Positions 1,788-56,510 of a DNA stretch of 64,000 nucleotides are shown here, piece after piece. A program made the position numbers and the translations under genes. How positions within the stretch are numbered: the stretch's first letter is position 1; each line of letters opens with the position of its first letter. A model generated the notes under the pieces. That model was given only the letters and a program-made list of their open reading frames with translations. It was not told the origin of the DNA and made no database searches. Source of the stretch: Onthophagus taurus (taxonomy: Eukaryota; Arthropoda; Insecta; Coleoptera; Scarabaeidae); assembly GCF_036711975.1 (NCBI RefSeq), contig NC_091971.1:16685501-16749500 (forward strand), written 5' to 3'.

Positions 1788-4700
1788 TTAAACTGGTGGA
1801 GCCTCCTCCTTGGGCAGTACATTAAAGTTAACAAATCCATCGACGTCGTTTAATTCTTTAGAAGTAAATTTAGCACCGATTGTATGCATTCCAATCTCTT
1901 TTGGTGTAAATTTAAACTGAGCGACCGCGCTTTGTTTAGTTAAAACAGCCCCTTTTACCTTAATTTTGATTTGTTTTGATCCTGGTACATCAACGAGAAA
2001 TTCCCCTTTTTTCAATGGATTTGGCAGTGGATTTACTAATTCGATATCACCAATAACTTCGTTATCTACCTGAAGATTATCGGGTAAAATTATTTTAATA
2101 TCCGGTTTACGAACTCTAAAATCGTCTTGAGCATAATATTCGAATTTGGTATCTTCAACCGTAGCTAAACAACTTATATTAAAATTAGCTTGCTCTTTTA
2201 ATTTTTTGAAATAATCTTTGTATGGCACTTCAAGTTTGACTTCGTGTACTGACTCTGATTTAACGACGATATCAAATTTTTCTTTTTTAATTTGTTCGGT
2301 TGATTTACCAGTGTAAGCCATAACATCGACTCTCAAAATAACCGAAACGTTAAAATCTTTGTTTTTGTTACGATTTTTCATTACCAAACAAACAGTAAAT
2401 GGATCTCCGATGATAATATCATCGCGTAATTCGAAATTAAAGTGAATATCATTAAAATCTTCGTTGAGATAATATCGTGAGAATGAACTTTCGGATTGTT
2501 GGAGAGCTTTTAACATCGTAACGCGTTCCTCGCGTGTTTTTTCCGGGTGTTTATACGTATATGTAATGTCTTCTCTTTCGAATTTTCCGGGTGCTTTTGT
2601 ACTTATTAATTTTCCTATACCTAACATGTCTTTACCCAAGAGTTTTAAAGGTTGAGTTGGACCGGTGTATCTCCAAAAAACCTATAAAAAAATTGTAAAG
2701 ATGTTTAGTTTTTTTTTTGTAATCAAATCACATAAGATGCAAAGTCTAATTTGCATAAGAATGCAGCGACATCAACGCTCTAACGTTTTGTAACAAGGTA
2801 ATAGATCCTTGTTTGGTCGACCTAATTGAAGAAAACCAACGCGTGCCGCTCGATTAGCATTTGCATCGTACGAGTAAACGCATATCTTAAAATAGTCTCA
2901 CTCTTCAAATATGCATACTTTGTCTGCGTTGACTTCCGCGAAAAGGAAGGAACCATCGTACGGTCTTAGAACTTCCCCTCTTTTGCAAGCCAACACGGAT
3001 GCCGGTCCGCAACGGTACACATCCTCACTCGGTTCTTGCGGTGTTGCATCAATTGCTTGCCAACCATCGTATTCTTCGCCGATATCCGGTCTTTTCATCC
3101 ACACCTCATTCCAAACATGAAACGTCCATATCGAATCAGAATTAAGATCGTCCACAATTTTTCCGTTCGAATCCATAAAGAAATCTACTGTTAAAGAACT
3201 TTGGGTATCGTGTGCCGATGAATAATTTGTTACAACTCTTGATGGAATTCCCAAAGCACGACAAACTATTAAATTATTTTATTATGAGATAATTTTTTAT
3301 AAGAAAGAATTTACTTACTTGTTGTTACAACCCCTGCAAAAACCCAACATTGTCCAAATCGAACTGGTTTTTTCTTCTTATAATATTTTTGTAAAATTTC
3401 CGCGCTCCCAATCCATTTTGTAGGTGGAGTCCCTCCCGAATGATTTTCAGACCAATTTCCCATAACAACACCTTCATCATCAACGCTATTAACCCCGGCG
3501 GCTAAAGCTCGCGTTATTTGTACTGGATCGGATTTGGAATTTCCGTGGATTTTTCCGATACAATTTAAAACATACAAAGAACATTCCAAAATAGTTTCTT
3601 CAAATTGATCGTATTTCCAAATTGTTGGTCGTAATCTATTCGCGGTTCCTCTCCAAATTAATCCAACATCATTTAAGGTCGTTTCTTCCCTCCACTCCTC
3701 ATTTTTCATATAAACTTGATCGCGTTTATTCCAGGGGTTAAAAAGAAGATAAATCCCAGTTTCCCAACTATATCGATAAGCACCATCTTCAACCAATTTT
3801 GTATCAATTTCCATTTTCCATTTCGCAACGGGACAATCAGATGGTGATGTAACTTGAACCGTTAGTAAATCTTCGCTAACTGATTCTAAAATAACGTTCC
3901 ACGGTAAAGATTTATCGGGTTTTCTTAATAATGGTACAGCTACTAATGTACCTTGACCATGACTAGGTTTTTCAGAATCTAAAATTATATCATTAAAATT
4001 TCTTTTTGTTGAATAATTTTTATTATTACCATCAACAACAAATACAAAAGAAATTCCATCTTTAGTATCATTGTAAGGTCTACTTAATTGGATGTCAAGT
4101 CTAAAAGATTGACCTCTTCGCACCACTAATTGCGGTTCAACGGATCTGGTCATTAGATGGTACTTTGAGGTATTATGAGCCGGCCCATTTGCGGCGATGC
4201 AAGGGTCAATTTTTCTGACGATGAGAATGTCGGCTTCTTTGTCGGCATCGATATACGGTAGCCCGTCGGTTTCGTCTAAATAAAAACAAGAAAAAGTGAA
4301 AAAAAACTCTCCGTTTCGATGGCGTTGCTGCTGAGATCACCAATTTGCGCCAAAATCGCGATGTCGTAAGACAAGATCGAAAGTAACACTAAAAGTATGT
4401 AGGTCAAACGACGACCTTCTTCAAGGCGAAACCATGTTTACTTCTAAATGATTCACGTTTTTTTTTTTTTTTAATTTAGTCAGTTGAAAACCCACACTAT
4501 TTTAATAGATCTCATAGTGAAACTAAAAAAGTATGAAATATTAATAGAAACGGCGTCATTCTCGGTGTCTGCAAAGTATTTAGATAACGTCCGTGTTTGT
4601 CTGGTTATTCGATATGACGAGAGCTAATGGAGAAAGAAATTGTTTTGATCTATGAACATAAAGATATAAACATGAAGATGTAAAGCATTAAAAATAAAGT

Positions 4701-13149: not shown

Positions 13150-15730
13150 TTAAACATCAACAACAATCTGTTTGAAACCTTCAACATCATCTAATTGTTT
13201 CGATACGAATTTAGCTGCAACAGTTTGAAGTCCAGGCATTTCCGGAGTAAACATAAATTGTTCAGTAATTTCACCGTGCGGAGGAATATCATTCTTCAAT
13301 TTAATTTTAAGTTGTTTTCCTAAACCGGGTGCTTCAATAAGAAATTCTCCTTTCTTCAACGGAATGGGAAGAGGATTTTTTATACCAACACATCCTTGAA
13401 CCTGTCTTCCAACTTGATTCTTATTTGCGACGTCAATTGAAACACCCGGCTTTTTAATTATAACGTTATCCCTATCGTAATAGTAATAATTTGTGTTTTC
13501 CACTGACGCTAAACAGGAAATGACAAAGAAGCAGTTATCGGTCAAAAACTTGTTGTAGTCTTCAAAAGTGACGGGCATTATGAATTCCTTCTGGCCATTT
13601 TTCGGTACATTCACAGTTTCTTTGATGGCTTTGGCGGTAGCGAGAAGTTTACCGTTGTAAGAAAATACATCCAACCGTAATATGGTGAGGATGTTAAAAT
13701 TTTGGGTAGTGTTTGTATTGGTCATTATTAATTTAAGGTCGAATGATTCTCCAACGTTAATATCGTCGTAATATTTAAATTTGAAAATAATTTCTTCGAA
13801 TTTACTGGCAACGTAAGCTTTCCCGAATGGATGTTCAACTTGACGCATAGCTTTTAAGAAAATTGCCCTTTCCTCGGCAGAACCTTCATTAAACTTATAA
13901 GCATCCGTGACATCTAATCTTTTATAACCATTTGGACTTTTTGTGCTTATAAATTTTCCGACGTGATTAGTATTTTTCTCTACCAATTGAGAAGCGAAAC
14001 CGTTTCTATCCAACTTCCAAGTCACTGTATCAGCGTTGACACCAGAAAAAACGTATGGGACATCGTAAGGTTTGGTAATATCTCCGTTTTTGACGGCGAC
14101 AACCGAAGCTGGACCACAACGGAAGATTCTGTCACTTCTTTCCTGAGGTGTAGCATCTAAAGCTTGCCATCCATCATAACCGGTTCCAAGATCGGCTCTT
14201 TTCATCCAAACTTCAGACCAAACATGGAAGTTCCAAATGGAATCTGATCCACTATCTATTTTACCGTCATCGTCTATGAAGAAATCATTAGTTATTGATC
14301 CATCACCATCATGCGCCGAACTAAAATTTGTTATGGTACGTGCCGGTATTCCAAGAGCTCTACAAGCTATGATAAGATGAATTAATAATTTTTTTTCAAA
14401 AAATAAAAAAGTTCTTACCTGATGTTAAAATTCCAGCAAATACCCAACATTGTCCAAACTTAACAGGCTGCTTTTTCTTGTAGTACTGTTGTAAAATATC
14501 TCTACTTCCTGTCCATTTTAAAGGACTAACACCTCCTGTATAATCCTTACCCCAATTTCCAGCTAAAACCCCATAATCATCGTTGCTATTCATAACAGCG
14601 GAAAGTTTTCTAGTTACTTGAACTGCATCCGAACGTAAACGACCTTTCAATTGACCCAAATTTCCCACTAAATACAAAGCACAATCTAAAATGTCTTCAT
14701 CGAACTGCGCATAATTCCATGGTCTTCCCAAATTCGTCATATTGCACCATATCATTCCGTCCGAATTCAAAACGGCTTCTTCTCTCCATTCTTTAGATTC
14801 CATAAAAACTTCATCTTCCTCACACCATGGATTAAATAGAATAAAAATACTTTTTGGCAAATTAAACGTAGCAACATTTTCTGTGTTTTTATATTCAACC
14901 ATCAATGACCATTTCCCAACAATACAATCGGGTGATGGTGTTATATCGACAACAACTGTATTAGCTTCATGAGAGACCAAATTTGCTTTCCAAGCGTATT
15001 CTGAATCGTTATTTTTTGATAAACCAATAAGCACTATGGTTCCATCTCGGAAATTTGGTATTTTAGCATCTGCACTTTTGAAATTAAAAGCAATCTTGTC
15101 CGTGTCTGGTTTGTATGGGGAACTGAGGGTTATTTCAATTCGAAAACTTTGACCACGTCTGATCACTAAATTCGATTTGGTTCCTTGACGCATGTGGAAA
15201 TATTTCGAGGTGTTGTGTTCTTCTCCATTTTTTTCGATGCATAGGTTGATATTTTGAATTCGAGAATCTAAGAAAATTAAATAATTTTAAATTAACAATT
15301 CGATAAATGATGGATTAATACGGGGAATGGAGTGTCCGTTATATGAAACATTTTTAATTTAAACTTTAAACTTTTTGAATGAATAATTTGAATGCAGACA
15401 AATTAGTTAGTTCTACTTTCAGTTCAATAAAAATATACAATTTAGCACTGAATAACAGCTAAAACTAGAATTAACACTAGCATTAGAACTAACACTAGAC
15501 CTACAACTAGAACTAGAACATTCTGGTTTAGCTGTAAGTCTCTTAAGGTGGCTAAACCAGAATGATTCTAGTTCTAGATCTAGCGTTAGTTTGATTTAAC
15601 TTTTTTTGATCTTACCACTTTCAATATCTGTGTTATTTGGTAACGGGGGTTTTTCCTTTTCTTCCGGTAATTTTTTATTATTTTTACACCCACAAAATAA
15701 AAACTTAGATAAAATATTTTTACCGCCCAT
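13150..15730 (-). CDS. Tg: Transglutaminase TG-2 (annulin-like)
   Basis: Second transglutaminase, 726 aa. Exons on the minus strand: 15730-15616, 15267-14419, 14366-13150; the phases agree. The exon equal to TG-1 exons 3 and 4 is uninterrupted here, so one intron differs between the paralogues. The N-terminus MGGKNILSK with CGC a little later is a strong N-myristoylation candidate (Gly2, Ser at position 8) with possible palmitoylation. Core motifs are FGQCWVFAG (Cys312), NFHVWSEVW (His369) and LDATPQE (Asp392), so the triad is complete. Two C-terminal beta-barrels follow, ending IVVDV. The first intron contains a CTAG-rich dispersed repeat. A possible alternative first exon lies far upstream at 22451-22472. 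Expected role: crosslinking of cuticle, clot or basement-membrane proteins, as known for insect transglutaminases. Confidence 0.93.
15405..15600 (-). repeat. CTAG-rich dispersed repeat in TG-2 intron 1
   Basis: One copy of a repeat family built of degenerate CTAGTTCTAG-type strings around a palindromic core (ACATTCTGGTTTAGC and its inverse a few bases later, with TCTTAAG in the middle). The flank AATAAAAATATACAATTTAG is shared, in either orientation, with copies near 55.3 and 59.5 kb. It lies wholly inside the first intron of TG-2. Confidence 0.65.
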
Positions 15731-16864: not shown

Positions 16865-18122
16865 AAACTCTGTGAACCTGGAACCCGAGTTTACGATATT
16901 CTGATTTTATTACTACCATTCGATAGAGAATCGTTTGTACCTGTTTGTACCACTTTCGATTTCGTTTGTACCTCAACCGGTTCCAAAATACAGCGATTTT
17001 TTGATTTTTCAGAATACCGCTGAAATTGTGTATCTCCGTTATTAACACAGATATCGCAAAACGGTCGATGGAATTCGATAGAGAATCGTTTGTACCCGTT
17101 TGTACCACTTTTGTTTTCGTTTGTACCTCAACCGATTCCAAAATACAGCGATTTTTTGATTTTTGAGAATACCGCTGAAAGTGTGTATCTCGGTTATTAA
17201 TACAGATATCGCAAAACCGTCGATGGAATTCGATAGAGAATCGTTTGTACCCGTTTGTACCACTTTTGTTTTCGTTTGTACCTCAACCGGTTCCAAAATA
17301 CAGCGATTTTTTGATTTTTGAGAATACCGCTGAGAGTGTGTATCTCGGTTATTAATACAGATATCGCAAAACTGTCGATGGAATTCGATAGAGAATCGTT
17401 TGTACCCGTTTGTATCACTTTTGTTTTCGTTTGTACCTCAACCGGTTCCAAAATACAGCGATTTTTTGATTTTTCAGAATATTACCGCTGAAATTGAAAA
17501 AATCGCTGTATTTTGGAACTGATTGAGGTACAAACGAAACCAAAAGTGGTACAAACGGGTACAAACGATTCTCTATCGAATTCCATCGACAGTTTTGGGA
17601 TATCTGTATTAATAACGGAGATACACACTTTCAGCGGTATCGCCAAAAATCAAAAAATCGCTGTATTTTGGAACTGATTGAGGTACAAACGAAAACAAAA
17701 GTGGTACAAGCGGGTACAAACGATTTTCTATCGCATTCCATCGACAGTTTTGGGATATCTGTATTAATAACGGAGATACACAATTTCAGCGGTATTCTGA
17801 AAAATCAAAAAATCGCTGTATTTTGGAACCGGTTGAGGTACAAACGAAATCGAAAGTGGTACAAACAGGTACAAACGATGCTCTACCGAATTCCATCAAC
17901 CGTTTTGCGATATCTGTATTAATAACGGAGATACACAATTTCAGCGGTAAATTAGAAAATCAAAAAGTGGGGTTCCGGCAATTTTTCAAAATTTTTTTCT
18001 CACTTTAAGTCCTGAGGTACAAACGAAAGTAAAGGTGGTACAAACGAGTACAAACGATTCTCTATCGAATGGTACTAATAAAACCAAAATATCGTAAACT
18101 CGGGTTCTAGGTTCACAGAGCT
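16865..18122. mobile_element. Nested 1258 bp fold-back element
   Basis: Inserted in the left arm of the larger element. It is flanked by the 8 bp direct repeat ATAAAAAC (16857-16864 and 18123-18130). It begins AAACTCTGTGAACCTGGAAC and ends with the near reverse complement. Each half consists of 155 bp tandem units (anchors at about 17067, 17222 and 17377 on the left, mirrored on the right) and the two halves meet around 17485. An 8 bp target duplication fits hAT-type or related fold-back transposition. The overlapping 84-codon open stretches here are a by-product of the repeat. Confidence 0.85.
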
Positions 18123-23422: not shown

Positions 23423-26400
23423 TTATTGTACGAGTACAATAAGGCTACCATTAATACAATCGATTTCTTTGCAATTAAAATTCGCCACGATTCTTCTTTC
23501 CCCGGCCCTATGCGGGAAAAATCCTTCCTCAAAAGTAACCACTTCATTAGGTTGTACCTCCCTGTAATGATTCACTTTGGTCTTTTGCAAACCAGGACCT
23601 TCAACTGTATACGAACATCCTGTTAAACGGCAATTTAGTGGATTTCTAAAACTGAATTCTGCACGATTTTCTTGTCCAACAATCCATCTTTGATCGGTAT
23701 GGATTTGTAGGTATGGTTTCATCATAGTGAAATCATCCTCTTCACTCCAATTTTGTCCTGTTTCTTTTACATGGCCAATCGCGTAAATTTTCATCATACT
23801 ATGATCAACCAATTTTCCCAAATATTCAGTTGGGGATATATGTAGTTTAATAACCTCTTTGTCTCTAGATTTTAAAGTAAATGTGTGTTGATGACGTTTA
23901 ATATTCGCTGCGGTCATTCCGTGATAAAAAACGGAAGCAATCGAGACCATAACGTTGATTGTCCGGGGTTCATTTGCGTTATTACTAACGTTTATGAGAA
24001 TATTAAAATCTTGCCCCATTGGTACTGCATCTATATCAATCAAACTTAACTCAACATCTTGAATGTAGCAATCATCTGGGAGTTCTTGCATTGGGTGGGT
24101 TCGAGGAACACCACGAACGGCGTTATAAACTGCGAATCTTTCAGCATCCGCTTCTTCAAGGTTTTTATATTCTCGGGTGATATCCCAAAGATCATTTTCA
24201 CCAACATCATCATCGATATCGACGCGTTTTGTAACAATACGGCGACCAATTCTAAAAAAATCAAAATTGAAATAAAAATATTAACAAAAAGATTATAATT
24301 TACTGGTAACGATCCAAAAATAATCGATTATAACCCCAATCAGATCGCGGATCTTCTTGATAATGACACAAATCTGCATTAACCTCAGCAAAAACGAAAG
24401 GAGTATCGTATAAAAATCCAACTTCTCCTCTTCTAATAGCCTCAACGGATGCAGGCCCACATTTAACGATCGTATCATTTTGTTCTTGCGGTGTTGCATC
24501 AATAACTTGCCAACCTCCGTATCCTGGTGGTAAATCAGGTCGAGCCATCCACACTTCATTCCAAACATGGAACGTCCAGCAAGTATTGTAATAATCCCGA
24601 TTATAATCGGGGCTATGATAATCTCGGTTAAATCTCCAATCATAACGATTATCATGTCCTTCAAAACAACGTTTGTTATAATAATCTCTATCGTAATAAT
24701 TTCTATTAAAATAGGAAGAAGAATCGGTGTTTCTGTAGCGATTATCGTAAAAATCTCTTGGATGGTCGAAATAACTTTCGGGGAAGTTATGTTTATAAAT
24801 GTCGTAATATCGATTACCGTTCACACGGCCATAATTAAATTTGTTGTAATTATAATCAAGACTTTTGCTGTAATTCCCATCGAAATATCCTCTTTGGTGA
24901 CCGTTTCTGTAATAATCATTTCCGCGGTCGCTATCGTATTCGAAACGACGACCCATATCGAAATGGTATCTATTTTCATCGCTGTAACCTCTGTTCCAAC
25001 CGTAAATGTTCCAGTTTCGATCCCCGTCAAAATAGTTTCTATTCCAGTGTCGATCCCTATTATCAAAATCTCCATATCTGTTCCAATGCCTGGCTCTATC
25101 CCAATAATTCCCACCGTAATAATCCCCGTTGAATCTATTCCAATAACGATTTTTAGTCCAATCTCTTTCATAATCCCACTTTTTGTTACATTCAAATCGA
25201 TCTCCATCAAACGAACCTCTATTCCATCTTCTTTCGGGCATATCACCATCTAAATTATGTCTATTCCAAAATCTTTGCCGATCATAGTCAGGTTCAAAAC
25301 GATTTCTATCGCTGTAATCCCTGTAATATCTGTTCCAATAGCGGTTACTTTCGAAATTGTCGGGTTCCCCATAATTTCGTCTATTTCCTTCCATACATCC
25401 TCTATCACCATCAAAATAATTTCTATTATAATTTCTTCCAGGATTAGACCCTAATCTTTCTCTATATCTCTCCCTTTCAAAATGAGGGCGCTCAAATGAT
25501 TCGTATTTATCAAAATGATTTGGTCCTAATCGATTAAAATTCCTAAATCGGTCATAATCAAATCTATTTTCTCTGTCGTATAAACCAGTTCTGTCCATTC
25601 TATCAAATCGGTCCATTCTATCCCATCTATCTAACCGATCCATGTTGCGATAATTTCCTTCACCATACATAGGATTGCGAGAATACATTCTTTGCTTTTC
25701 GTAGTAATCAGGCATAAAATTTCTATCCTGTTCATAACTATTCCTATTGAGATGTCTCCCCCCATCAAAATTAGGATCATTAAAGCTTCTATTCCAATAT
25801 CTATTCCCATAATTTCGATTGCCTTCCATGTTATCACAACTGGTTCTATAATATCGATTACTTCCATCCCAACTTCTTCTATTAAACGCGTTCCTGCTGT
25901 AATCCCAATCGTTGTTGTAATAAGCTCGGTTCCAAAAATAATTTCTGCTATTATCAAAATACCCGCGATTATAATCATTTCGACCATCCCTATTATCTGG
26001 GGATGAATAACTTTTACTTGGATTTCCAAAATTTCTTGTTTCATAATCATAACTTGGTCTGTAACGATATCCTCCATCTAAAGGACCACTTTTAATATCC
26101 ATTCCCAAACCTCTTCGATTATGGTAATCGCCATCGTAATTTGAATTTCCTTTTCCCTCGAAATAACCGCGACAAGCATTGTAACAACTCACCGTACCAT
26201 CCAAACAACTCTTCGAATCTTGATCTTTTCTATTATCATAACAATTATAATTATAATAACTTCCTTTTCCATCAAAATAGCTCCGATTTCTATTATATCC
26301 GGTCCCATCAAAATAACTTCTCGTATCTGAGTAACCTCTTCCATCAAAGTAACTTCTATTTCTATCGTAAAAACCTCCCCTTCCATCGCCTCCATCCGGG

Positions 26401-27796
26401 GAAGGTTGAACGCTTTCAGTTCTTCCTTCATAACAAGGAATTTGGGATCTCCTCGGCCAAGATTGTCTTCTATATCGGTAACCATCATCAGGAAGATCTC
26501 GCTTATACATCCAATCTTGATTTTCGGCATCTTTTGACCAATCATATCTTTGAATGCGTCTTTCTTGATCGTTAAGTCTTTGGTAATTGTAAGAAATAAC
26601 GCGTTTATAGCGATAGCTTTCTCCTCTTGGGCCATATTCCAAACGATTTCCTCTCAAATCGAAATATCGATCAACAGTTAAAGAACAATTTGTGTCATGG
26701 GCCGAAACATAATTGGTTGTTGACCGACACGGAATTCCTAAAGCTCTGCAAATTGTTACCACAAGAGCTGAAAAAACCCAACATTGTCCGTATTTTACTG
26801 GACGACCACCTGCTTTTAAAAATTGGCTCAAAATTGCAACGGAACCAGTCCATGCGTGTGGTGAAGTTCCCCCGCGATAATCACCATCCCATTTTCCTTC
26901 TAAAAGGCCTTCATCGTCGAACGCATTTACAACTTGGGTGATAGCTCTTGACACCAAAACTGGTGATCCCCAATCGACGTAAGGAAGATGGGATTTATCT
27001 AAAAGAAAAAGAACTGCTGGAAGAACGATTTCGTCGAATTGACCATAAATCCATCGTTTTCCTTTTGGATGTTTGTAAGTTCCACACCAAATTTTTCCGC
27101 TATCGTTTAAAACGTATTCTTGGCGATCATCTTCATGGTCCATGTAAACCCCATCGTCTCTACACCAAGGGTTAAAAAGGATATAGACGTCTTCTTCACA
27201 CTAAATTAATTAAAAAAGTTAATAATTAACAACAAAAAAATTTATGAAATAATTCATACTCTGAAATCATCTCTTTTTAAATTATCCCTCCCATCGATAT
27301 ACAATTCACCCCTTCTATAAGCATCATATGATCGCCCTCCAAAAATTTCAGTTTGAATCTCACACCTCCAAATTCCAACTTGAGCGTTCGGTGGAATGTG
27401 GATTTGCATAGTTACGGCATTTCCTTCGTGTCGTTGCATGGTCATGTTCCATCTGTACATTTCTTTTTGCATTTGTTTGTCCCTTGTGAGCAAGGGAAGA
27501 ATAATTTTTGTGCCCTTTGTAACATGCGGTTTCGGTCCTATATAAAAATTAAATTAAAAAAGGGGTTACACAAAAATTTTAATCGTACCAAAACAAAACG
27601 CAATATAAACGATGTCTCTTGCTTCATCGAAATTTCTGTTAAAACGTAATGTAAAAATGAAACTGAAACCTCGACGTAAAATTGGGGTTGGTTTATCTCT
27701 TAATGCCACCAAATCATAACGTTCGGTGTGATGTTCTCTGGAATTATCTCTTGCATAAAAATCGAATCCTTGGACGTCCAAGGGATCCAAAGACAT
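23423..27796 (-). CDS. Tg: Transglutaminase TG-3 with ~680 aa insertion in the catalytic core
   Basis: Third transglutaminase of the cluster. Exons on the minus strand: 27796-27589, 27537-27260, 27200-24304, 24251-23423, with phases consistent. A likely 5' UTR exon ends at 27865. The product is 1403 aa, twice the family length. The start MSLDPLDVQGFDFYARD lacks the MG acylation signal. The N-terminal domain, FNPWCRDDGVYMD and the core follow: YGQCWVFSA (Cys302), CWTFHVWNEVW (His1040) and VIDATPQE (Asp1063), so the triad is intact. Between FDLRGNRLEY and CWTFHVW lie about 684 extra residues (352-1035) dominated by Tyr, Asn, Arg, Asp, Gly and Phe, with repeated YFDG and RYWNR/HWNR motifs. In TG-1 this interval is about 20 residues. 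C-terminal barrels are normal. The insertion is one open frame with the rest of the exon. Confidence 0.9.
24582..26633 (-). repeat. Tyr/Asn/Arg/Asp-rich insertion within TG-3
   Basis: About 2052 nt encode roughly 684 residues of low-complexity protein inside the TG-3 core. YFDG or a close variant (SYFDGRG, SYFDGTG, NYFDGDR, GYFDGNY) recurs about ten times, WNR (RYWNR, HWNR, RRWNR) more than ten times, and there is a short run of MDR/WDR/FDR repeats near 25570-25640. Aliphatic residues, Lys and Gln are sparse. Long open stretches in other frames (for example plus-strand 24567-25253, Ile/Val/Ser-rich) are by-products of the biased codons. Confidence 0.9.
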
Positions 27797-27864
27797 GATG
27801 GTAATGGATTGAAAACTGAAAAAAATTTAGAAAGTTTGTGATGATACAAAATTAAACCACTTAC

Positions 27865-55441: not shown

Positions 55442-56510
55442 GAAAACATTTATCCTTGCGAGCAAGGCGGTAGAATTTCCCAGAGTTGACAATTTTGTGT
55501 TGATACAACAAATCCAGCGCCTCGCCCGCAAACGACCTCGGCGATTTGAGACGAAATCGTTCCTTATATTTCTTGGTAAAGACACTATAAGAAAACATTT
55601 ACCCTCACTCCGCCGAGGTCGCTTGCGGGCGAGGCGCTAGTTTTCGTAAATTAACACGAAATAGTCAGCTCTGAAGGTTGTAGGGCCTCGCCCGCAAGCG
55701 ACCTTGGCGATTTGAGACGAAATCGTTCCTTATATACCTTGGTAAAGACATTAAGTTTGTTATAAGAAAACGTTTACCCTCACTCCGCCGAGGTCGCTTG
55801 CGGGGAGGCGCTAGTTTTCATGAATCAACATGAAATAGGCAACTCTGACGGTTCTAAGGTCTTGCCCGGAAGTGACCTCAGCGATTTGAGACGAAATCGT
55901 TCCTTATATACCTTGATAAAGACATTAAGTCTCTTATAAGAAAACATTTACCCTCACTTAGCCGAGGTCGCTTGCGGGCGAGGCGCTTGTTTTGTTGAAT
56001 CAACACGAAATAGTCAGCTCTGAAGGTTGTAGGGCCTCGCCCGCAAGCGACCTCGGTGATTTGAGACGAAATCGTTCATTATATACTTTTATAAAGACAT
56101 TAAGTCTCTTATAAGAAAACATTTACCCTCACTTCGCCGAGGTCGCTTGCGGGCGAGGCGCTAGTTTTGATGAATCAATACGATATAGTCAGCTCTGATT
56201 GTTCAAGGGCCTCGCTCGCAAGCGACCTTGGCGATTTGAGACGAAATCGTTCCTCATATACCTTGATAAAGACATTAAGTCTCTTATAAGAAAATATTTA
56301 CCCTCACTTCGCCGAGGTCGCTTGCGGGTGAGGCGCTAGTTTTCATGAATCAACACGAAATAGTCAACTCTCAGCGTTCTAAGGTTTCGCCCGGAAGTGA
56401 CCTCAGCGATTTGAGACGAAATCGTTCCTTATATACCTTGGTAAAGACATTAAGTTTGTTATAAGAAAACATTTATCCTCACTTCGCTGAGATCAATACG
56501 AAGTTGTTAG
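55442..56510. repeat. 175 bp satellite array, about six units
   Basis: The anchor GAAAACATTTACCCTCACT recurs at about 55591, 55766, 55940, 56115, 56290 and 56465 (spacing 174-175), with a shorter unit at 55442. Each unit contains CCGAGGTCGCTTGCGGGCGA and, about 80 bp later, its inverse, so each can fold into a hairpin. It is GC-rich relative to its surroundings. Confidence 0.9.

Follow-up and report, generated by a model that had tools for sequence, protein, structure and literature searches.

A 684-residue low-complexity insertion in a predicted transglutaminase of Onthophagus taurus as a candidate self-associating loop

In a stretch of 64,000 nucleotides from the beetle Onthophagus taurus (NC_091971.1, positions 16,685,501 to 16,749,500; hereafter the window, in whose numbering all positions are given), one of three transglutaminase genes encodes a product of 1403 aa in which 684 residues, rich in Tyr, Arg, Asn and Asp, stand between the catalytic Cys and the catalytic His. 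We infer, with a probability of about 0.42, that this insertion is a self-associating loop which gathers the enzyme in a gel, granule or coat and alters the opening between the catalytic core and the first C-terminal barrel (C1).

The gene lies on the minus strand and has four coding exons, separated by introns of 51, 59 and 52 nt, all of them GT-AG, and its stop codon is TAA. With Pfam, Transglut_N (PF00868) was matched on the joined N-terminal 349 aa with an expectation value (E) of 2.6e-28, Transglut_core (PF01841) on exon 3 with E 3.4e-10, and Transglut_C (PF00927) in two stretches with E 6.1e-27. The core match is partial, its best stretch covering profile positions 51-84 of 108, with the domain split by the insertion, and both flanks align to factor XIII. 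The catalytic triad (Cys302, His1040 and Asp1063) is present, His330, Gln1067 and Glu1068 are kept as well, and so is the C1 Tyr over the active site, where FYHG here aligns with FYTG of factor XIII. On these sequence features the gene is a genuine animal-type (factor XIII-like) transglutaminase, whose protein is probably made and perhaps active. A preliminary description of the locus had held the triad and all other domains to be intact, and the N domain, core and C-terminal barrels found by Pfam, together with the conserved Cys-His-Asp, bear this out.

The insertion comprises residues 350-1033 (window 26639-24588, minus strand) and has no in-frame stop. Cys302 and His1040 are 738 residues apart within one open exon, compared with 59 and 57 residues in the two sister genes after splicing; the same description had reported a single open frame from Cys302 to His1040, a distance of 738 and a sister distance of 57-59, and all three were reproduced. 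A spacing near 58 residues is a trait common to the members compared here and does not define the family. Its coordinates for the insertion, 26633-24582, gave the correct length of 684 residues, with ends that are off by 6 bases, which is within alignment uncertainty. Among 1000 length-matched first-order Markov sequences, the longest open reading frame was 72 codons on average and 157 at most. Five residues dominate the composition, R at 15.9%, Y at 13.3%, N at 12.6%, D at 12.3% and G at 8.9% (109 Arg, 91 Tyr, 86 Asn and 84 Asp among the 684), and Lys, Gln and aliphatic residues are few, as had been claimed before (K 2.6%, Q 1.8%, I+L+V+A 3.9%). Charge is near balance, with 127 positive (Lys or Arg) and 113 negative residues. 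Residues 350-437 differ from the rest in holding 7 of the 12 Gln (p about 1e-4, for a region picked post hoc), all within the first 78 insertion residues, and no Phe; these Gln are possible self-crosslinking sites.

A degenerate unit, [W/Y/F]NRxYFDG[D/K]R, recurs in the insertion. YFDG occurs 6 times and WNR 9 times, against means of 0.05 and 0.38 in 500 residue shuffles, so the repetition of these two motifs, already pointed out from the letters, is far above chance. A 9-residue motif of the NRxYFDG type has 14 sites, some of them weak, with a total of 255 bits compared with 102-130 in 12 shuffled sequences, and 63 pairs of 8-residue windows share 6 or more identities, where 200 shuffles gave 3.7 such pairs on average and never more than 14. 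At the DNA level the likeness of the copies is no greater than synonymous-codon shuffling produces. Identical aligned residues use the same codon in 96 of 165 pairs (0.58), where random synonymous sites would give 0.53, and there are 19 DNA-similar in-frame segments, a number for which 20 runs of synonymous-codon shuffling gave 16 on average (range 8-24) and 20 runs of codon-order shuffling gave 3.2 on average (maximum 7). The motifs have thus survived a near-randomisation of silent sites, which argues that the repeats are old and maintained at the protein level; judged by its codons, the insertion is an old repeat with no recent expansion.

These data bear on the possibility that the insertion is a functionless expansion, tolerated in a loop that accepts repeats, with its frame preserved only because any frameshift would abolish the enzyme. 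Its low complexity and loop position would suit such an origin, as would a weak periodicity of 12 residues, for which the z values of the identity excess (2.8 for lag 24, 2.1 for lag 12) are the two highest among 59 lags. However, the retention of motifs despite nearly saturated synonymous sites and the excess of the 9-residue motif over shuffled sequences both speak against it, and so does the spacing of Lys and Arg, which on three measures is evener than in all of 2000 shuffles. For Asp and Glu, 0.4-1% of shuffles were as even, and for Arg alone 0.6-6%. We consider a functionless expansion quite unlikely.

An unspliced intron or an assembly artefact was considered as another origin. We scored all 5616 GT-AG pairs at least 60 nt apart in the segment, as single introns, with a consensus matrix. 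A strong donor at 26192 (ACGGTGAGT) and a strong acceptor at 24703 lie inside the insertion, and in 56 of the 5616 pairs both sites score no lower than the weakest genuine ones of the gene; 12 of these are in frame, with losses of 38 to 420 codons, which makes a shorter splice form possible, the best in-frame pair being 25962-24703 (420 codons). Nevertheless, the best pair overall, 26192-24703 (1490 nt), is out of frame and meets a stop within a few codons, and in all 48 in-frame pairs that would take out 600 codons or more, the donor is poorer than the weakest genuine one. Hidden-intron status was rejected for the insertion, as no good in-frame single intron removes the whole of it. The sisters have an intron directly after the Cys codon; this intron is missing here and its position is elsewhere, hence the insertion is not that intron. 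The 684 open codons with old protein-level repeats, and the finding of neither inverted matches of at least 8 nor direct matches of at least 10 between the insertion ends, further oppose both an intron and an artefact, which leaves this origin exceedingly improbable. The open frame, the old motif repeats, the triad and the lack of a good in-frame intron for the whole segment all favour the earlier claim of a real protein-coding insertion. If splicing from 26192 to 24703 were used, it would yield a truncated protein.

A mobile-element origin was likewise rejected, with no terminal inverted match of at least 8 and with the insertion present only once in the window. One 9-base direct match was seen, whose right copy lies 21 bases beyond the junction in the conserved His region, and it was judged to be chance. 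Besides the insertion itself, tblastn against the window gave only matches with E 3.0 and 5.8, and blastn against the rest of the window gave short matches only (E 0.03 or worse). No known domain was found in the insertion in Pfam at E up to 10, nor any match in PDB sequences or in NCBIfam (bacterial and archaeal models), both at E up to 1. Among the matches listed from open-access literature, no title or abstract opening described a transglutaminase with such an insertion, and the portions of PMC5332030, PMC13073648 and PMC11236712 consulted contain nothing on such insertions; on this literature we regard the protein as provisionally novel.

Alignment to human transglutaminase 3 (TG3) places the insertion between the equivalents of TG3 Asn318 and Asp325, in a loop that joins the strand ending in Gly346-Asn347 (TG3 Gly317-Asn318) to the strand with Trp1037 and His1040 (TG3 Trp328 and His331). 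TG3 residues His301, Asp302, Asp310, Gly317 and Asn318 are conserved before the insertion, and Trp328, His331, Asp354, Gln358 and Glu359 after it. In excerpts of the structural account of TG3 (PMC10556103), the ligands of calcium site 3 are the side chains of Asp302, Asp304, Asn306, Asp310 and Asp325 plus the Ser308 backbone. Gly317 and Asn318 form bonds with the C1 barrel, and the loop carrying Asp325 rests against this barrel, which closes the active site; without calcium the loop covers part of the substrate site, and it shifts on calcium binding. As the insertion is within the Asp325 loop, its position, so far given as between Cys and His, is sharpened to a calcium-controlled loop between core and lid. 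This exact site, which is new relative to the preliminary description, fits a predicted role in gating.

At calcium site 3, TG3 Asp302 and Asp310 are kept, and the equivalents of D304N, N306S and D325N are found. These changes, together with a Thr for TG3 Asn329, raise the possibility that the insertion has damaged site 3 and that the protein is now a dead or altered, structural scaffold. Protein 4.2, a relative of the transglutaminases whose structure has been solved, is an inactive structural member of the family and would be a precedent. On the other side, Cys302, His1040, Asp1063, His330, Gln1067 and Glu1068 are all retained, the two remaining calcium sites have the same side-chain ligands as factor XIII when the alignments are read by eye, and one of the sister genes (sister gene 1) also departs at site 3, where by eye Gln replaces Asp304 and Ser replaces Asn306, though it has no insertion. 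A scaffold of this kind is very unlikely.

The same site could instead make the insertion a regulatory lid, which blocks or props the interface of core and C1 and keeps the enzyme latent until trypsin-like proteases nick it to give an active two-chain enzyme. The loop in question is the one that in TG3 shields part of the substrate site until calcium binds and then moves, and TG3 itself requires cleavage, at another loop, according to the excerpts of PMC10556103. Moreover, with Lys or Arg at 127 of the 684 positions, trypsin-like proteases could cut nearly anywhere. Against this, 684 residues and repeated aromatic motifs would be unnecessary for a lid, and no specific cleavage site stood out, although none was searched for. 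We rate a protease-released lid as rather unlikely.

In the favoured mechanism, a long and old chain of repeats, dominated by Tyr, Arg, Asn and Asp, would have grown inside one surface loop of the transglutaminase core. The chain would be largely unfolded and would exit and re-enter the core at the calcium-site-3 loop, and its copies would associate via scattered aromatic and Arg residues, so that the enzyme is concentrated in a gel, granule, clot or extracellular coat. Since the chain is tied to a loop that moves on detachment of the C1 and C2 barrels, assembly would either exert a pull on calcium site 3 or take over its role, and crosslinking would thereby be coupled to presence in the assembly. 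The first 88 residues, which bear Gln, could be auto-crosslinked and would then anchor the enzyme. Aromatic residues and Arg together make up 258 of the 684 residues (0.38); to be set against this figure, the excerpted text of PMC10850361 gives 24 residues, a fraction of 0.14, for the prion-like domain of FUS. In the part of PMC11820118 consulted, aromatics act as stickers and the effects of Arg are context-specific. This richness in aromatics and Arg makes self-association plausible, and the composition would fit it. The preliminary description had suggested phase separation or self-assembly, gating of substrate access, and binding to cuticle, nucleic acid or chitin as possible roles. The charge-hydropathy value of 0.284, with the boundary at 0.421, also falls on the disordered side.

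Several observations weigh against a self-associating loop. The disorder tendency of the insertion on the TOP-IDP scale is not above that of the core (0.031 vs 0.050), a low value that arises because aromatics count against disorder on this scale. The share of charged residues, 35%, is unlike that of typical prion-like domains, and pairing of Arg with Asp could lower stickiness. The spacing of aromatics is barely evener than chance, with 4-35% of shuffles as even (8.6% for gap spread and 4.4% for window variance), and in the same shuffle test of the insertion Gly and Asn are spaced no more evenly than chance. TG3 Asn329, which touches a bound inhibitor in the excerpts of PMC10556103, is Thr here as it is in sister gene 1. 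AlphaFold2, run on the 966-aa exon with an alignment of five rows (this exon and four sister fragments), was uninformative, the core included (mean predicted local distance difference test score 31.1, predicted template modelling score 0.24); the strands that it places at the flanks of the insertion agree with our placement, and the model was not relied on. Finally, no relative bearing the insertion was found, with 0 of 2 pattern matches confirmed in viral contigs and 0 of 9 in prokaryote genomes, two collections in which insect genes are not expected.

The Tyr content also allows the insertion to be read as a matrix anchor or co-substrate, whereby Tyr oxidation, with the few Gln and Lys, would link the chain into cuticle or coat and fix the enzyme there, self-association being secondary. 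Its 91 Tyr would serve this purpose, and transglutaminase and dityrosine crosslinks both occur in Drosophila cuticle according to excerpts of PMC6440989 and PMC2956697. On the other hand, no chitin-binding domain was found by Pfam, and we hold an anchor of this type to be unlikely. A bolder form of the self-associating loop, in which the enzyme is a self-scaffolding crosslinker whose loop condenses enzyme and targets and, through its tie to calcium site 3 and C1, makes assembly itself the activation signal, so that crosslinking is turned on where the protein gathers, is compatible with the evidence but rather unlikely.

Among solved structures, the human factor XIII A chain is the best sequence match for the core exon and barrels. 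It shares with the present protein the order of domains, the triad, the C1 Tyr and the side-chain ligands at two of the calcium sites, and differs in having 7 residues where 686 are found here (positions 185 and 872 of the exon query align to positions 359 and 367 of the chain). Human TG3 matches residue by residue around the calcium site 3 loop, but has no insertion, carries Asp304, Asn306, Asp325 and Asn329 where Asn, Ser, Asn and Thr stand here, and is activated via cleavage at a different loop (PMC10556103, in part). The FUS-type prion-like or Arg-Tyr-rich regions, as far as the excerpts describe them, share the scattering of aromatics and Arg along a low-complexity chain; here, in contrast, 35% of residues are charged, an NRxYFDG motif recurs and the region is inside a folded enzyme core.

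Like the window, Anopheles gambiae has three transglutaminases (AgTG1-3), of which AgTG3 is a specialised extra enzyme of the mating plug (PMC4113009, in part), and the single Drosophila transglutaminase acts in cuticle (PMC2956697, in part). A specialised extra copy thus has precedent. No insertion is mentioned for the Drosophila enzyme or AgTG1-3 in these excerpts, and they are set apart from the present protein by such descriptions and not by sequences. The three genes of the window (1788-4336, 13150-15286 and 23423-27796) are all on one strand. The insertion-bearing gene differs from both sisters in lacking the intron directly after Cys and in having two introns within the N-domain stretch, which is one open frame in each sister. 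Coordinates are collected in Table 1.

Table 1. Features of the insertion-bearing transglutaminase gene and of its two sister genes (window positions)
Feature	Position	Strand	Remarks
TATAAA box, upstream of gene	27933		
Probable intron of the 5' untranslated region (GT-AG, 49 nt)	27816..27864	-	splice sites read by eye
Coding exon 1, start ATG, transglutaminase N domain	27589..27796	-	
Coding exon 2, N domain	27260..27537	-	
Coding exon 3, catalytic core: Cys302, insertion, His1040, Asp1063	24304..27200	-	
Catalytic core before the insertion: Cys302 (codon start 26783), calcium site 3 residues 331-339	26640..27200	-	
Insertion part 1, residues 350-437: 7 of the insertion's 12 Gln, 0 Phe, Asn sparse	26376..26639	-	
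Insertion repeat part, residues 438-1033: degenerate [W/Y/F]NRxYFDG[D/K]R units	24588..26375	-	
Catalytic core downstream of the insertion, with Trp1037, His1040 (codon start 24569) and Asp1063	24304..24587	-	
Coding exon 4 with the two C-terminal beta-barrels and the stop codon TAA	23423..24251	-	Transglut_C match
Sister transglutaminase without insertion, Cys-His 57	13150..15286	-	extent of main open frames, not full gene model
Sister transglutaminase without insertion, Cys-His 59	1788..4336	-	extent of main open frames, not full gene model

The window also has genes for TIM21 and a ubiquitin-conjugating enzyme. Two adjacent tandem arrays with a 155-bp unit, of 3.6 and 2.9 copies, lie at 16918-17949, the second consensus being the reverse complement of the first (by eye), and a further array at 55519-56491 has 5.6 copies of a 175-bp unit with a GC-rich GCCTCGCCCGCAAGCGACC segment.

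With 684 residues against 719, the low-complexity domain nearly equals the rest of the enzyme, and it is located between two catalytic residues and not at a terminus. If the self-associating loop proposed here is true, it would be an unusual coupling of assembly with catalysis, and the protein would offer a natural template for self-localising protein glues.

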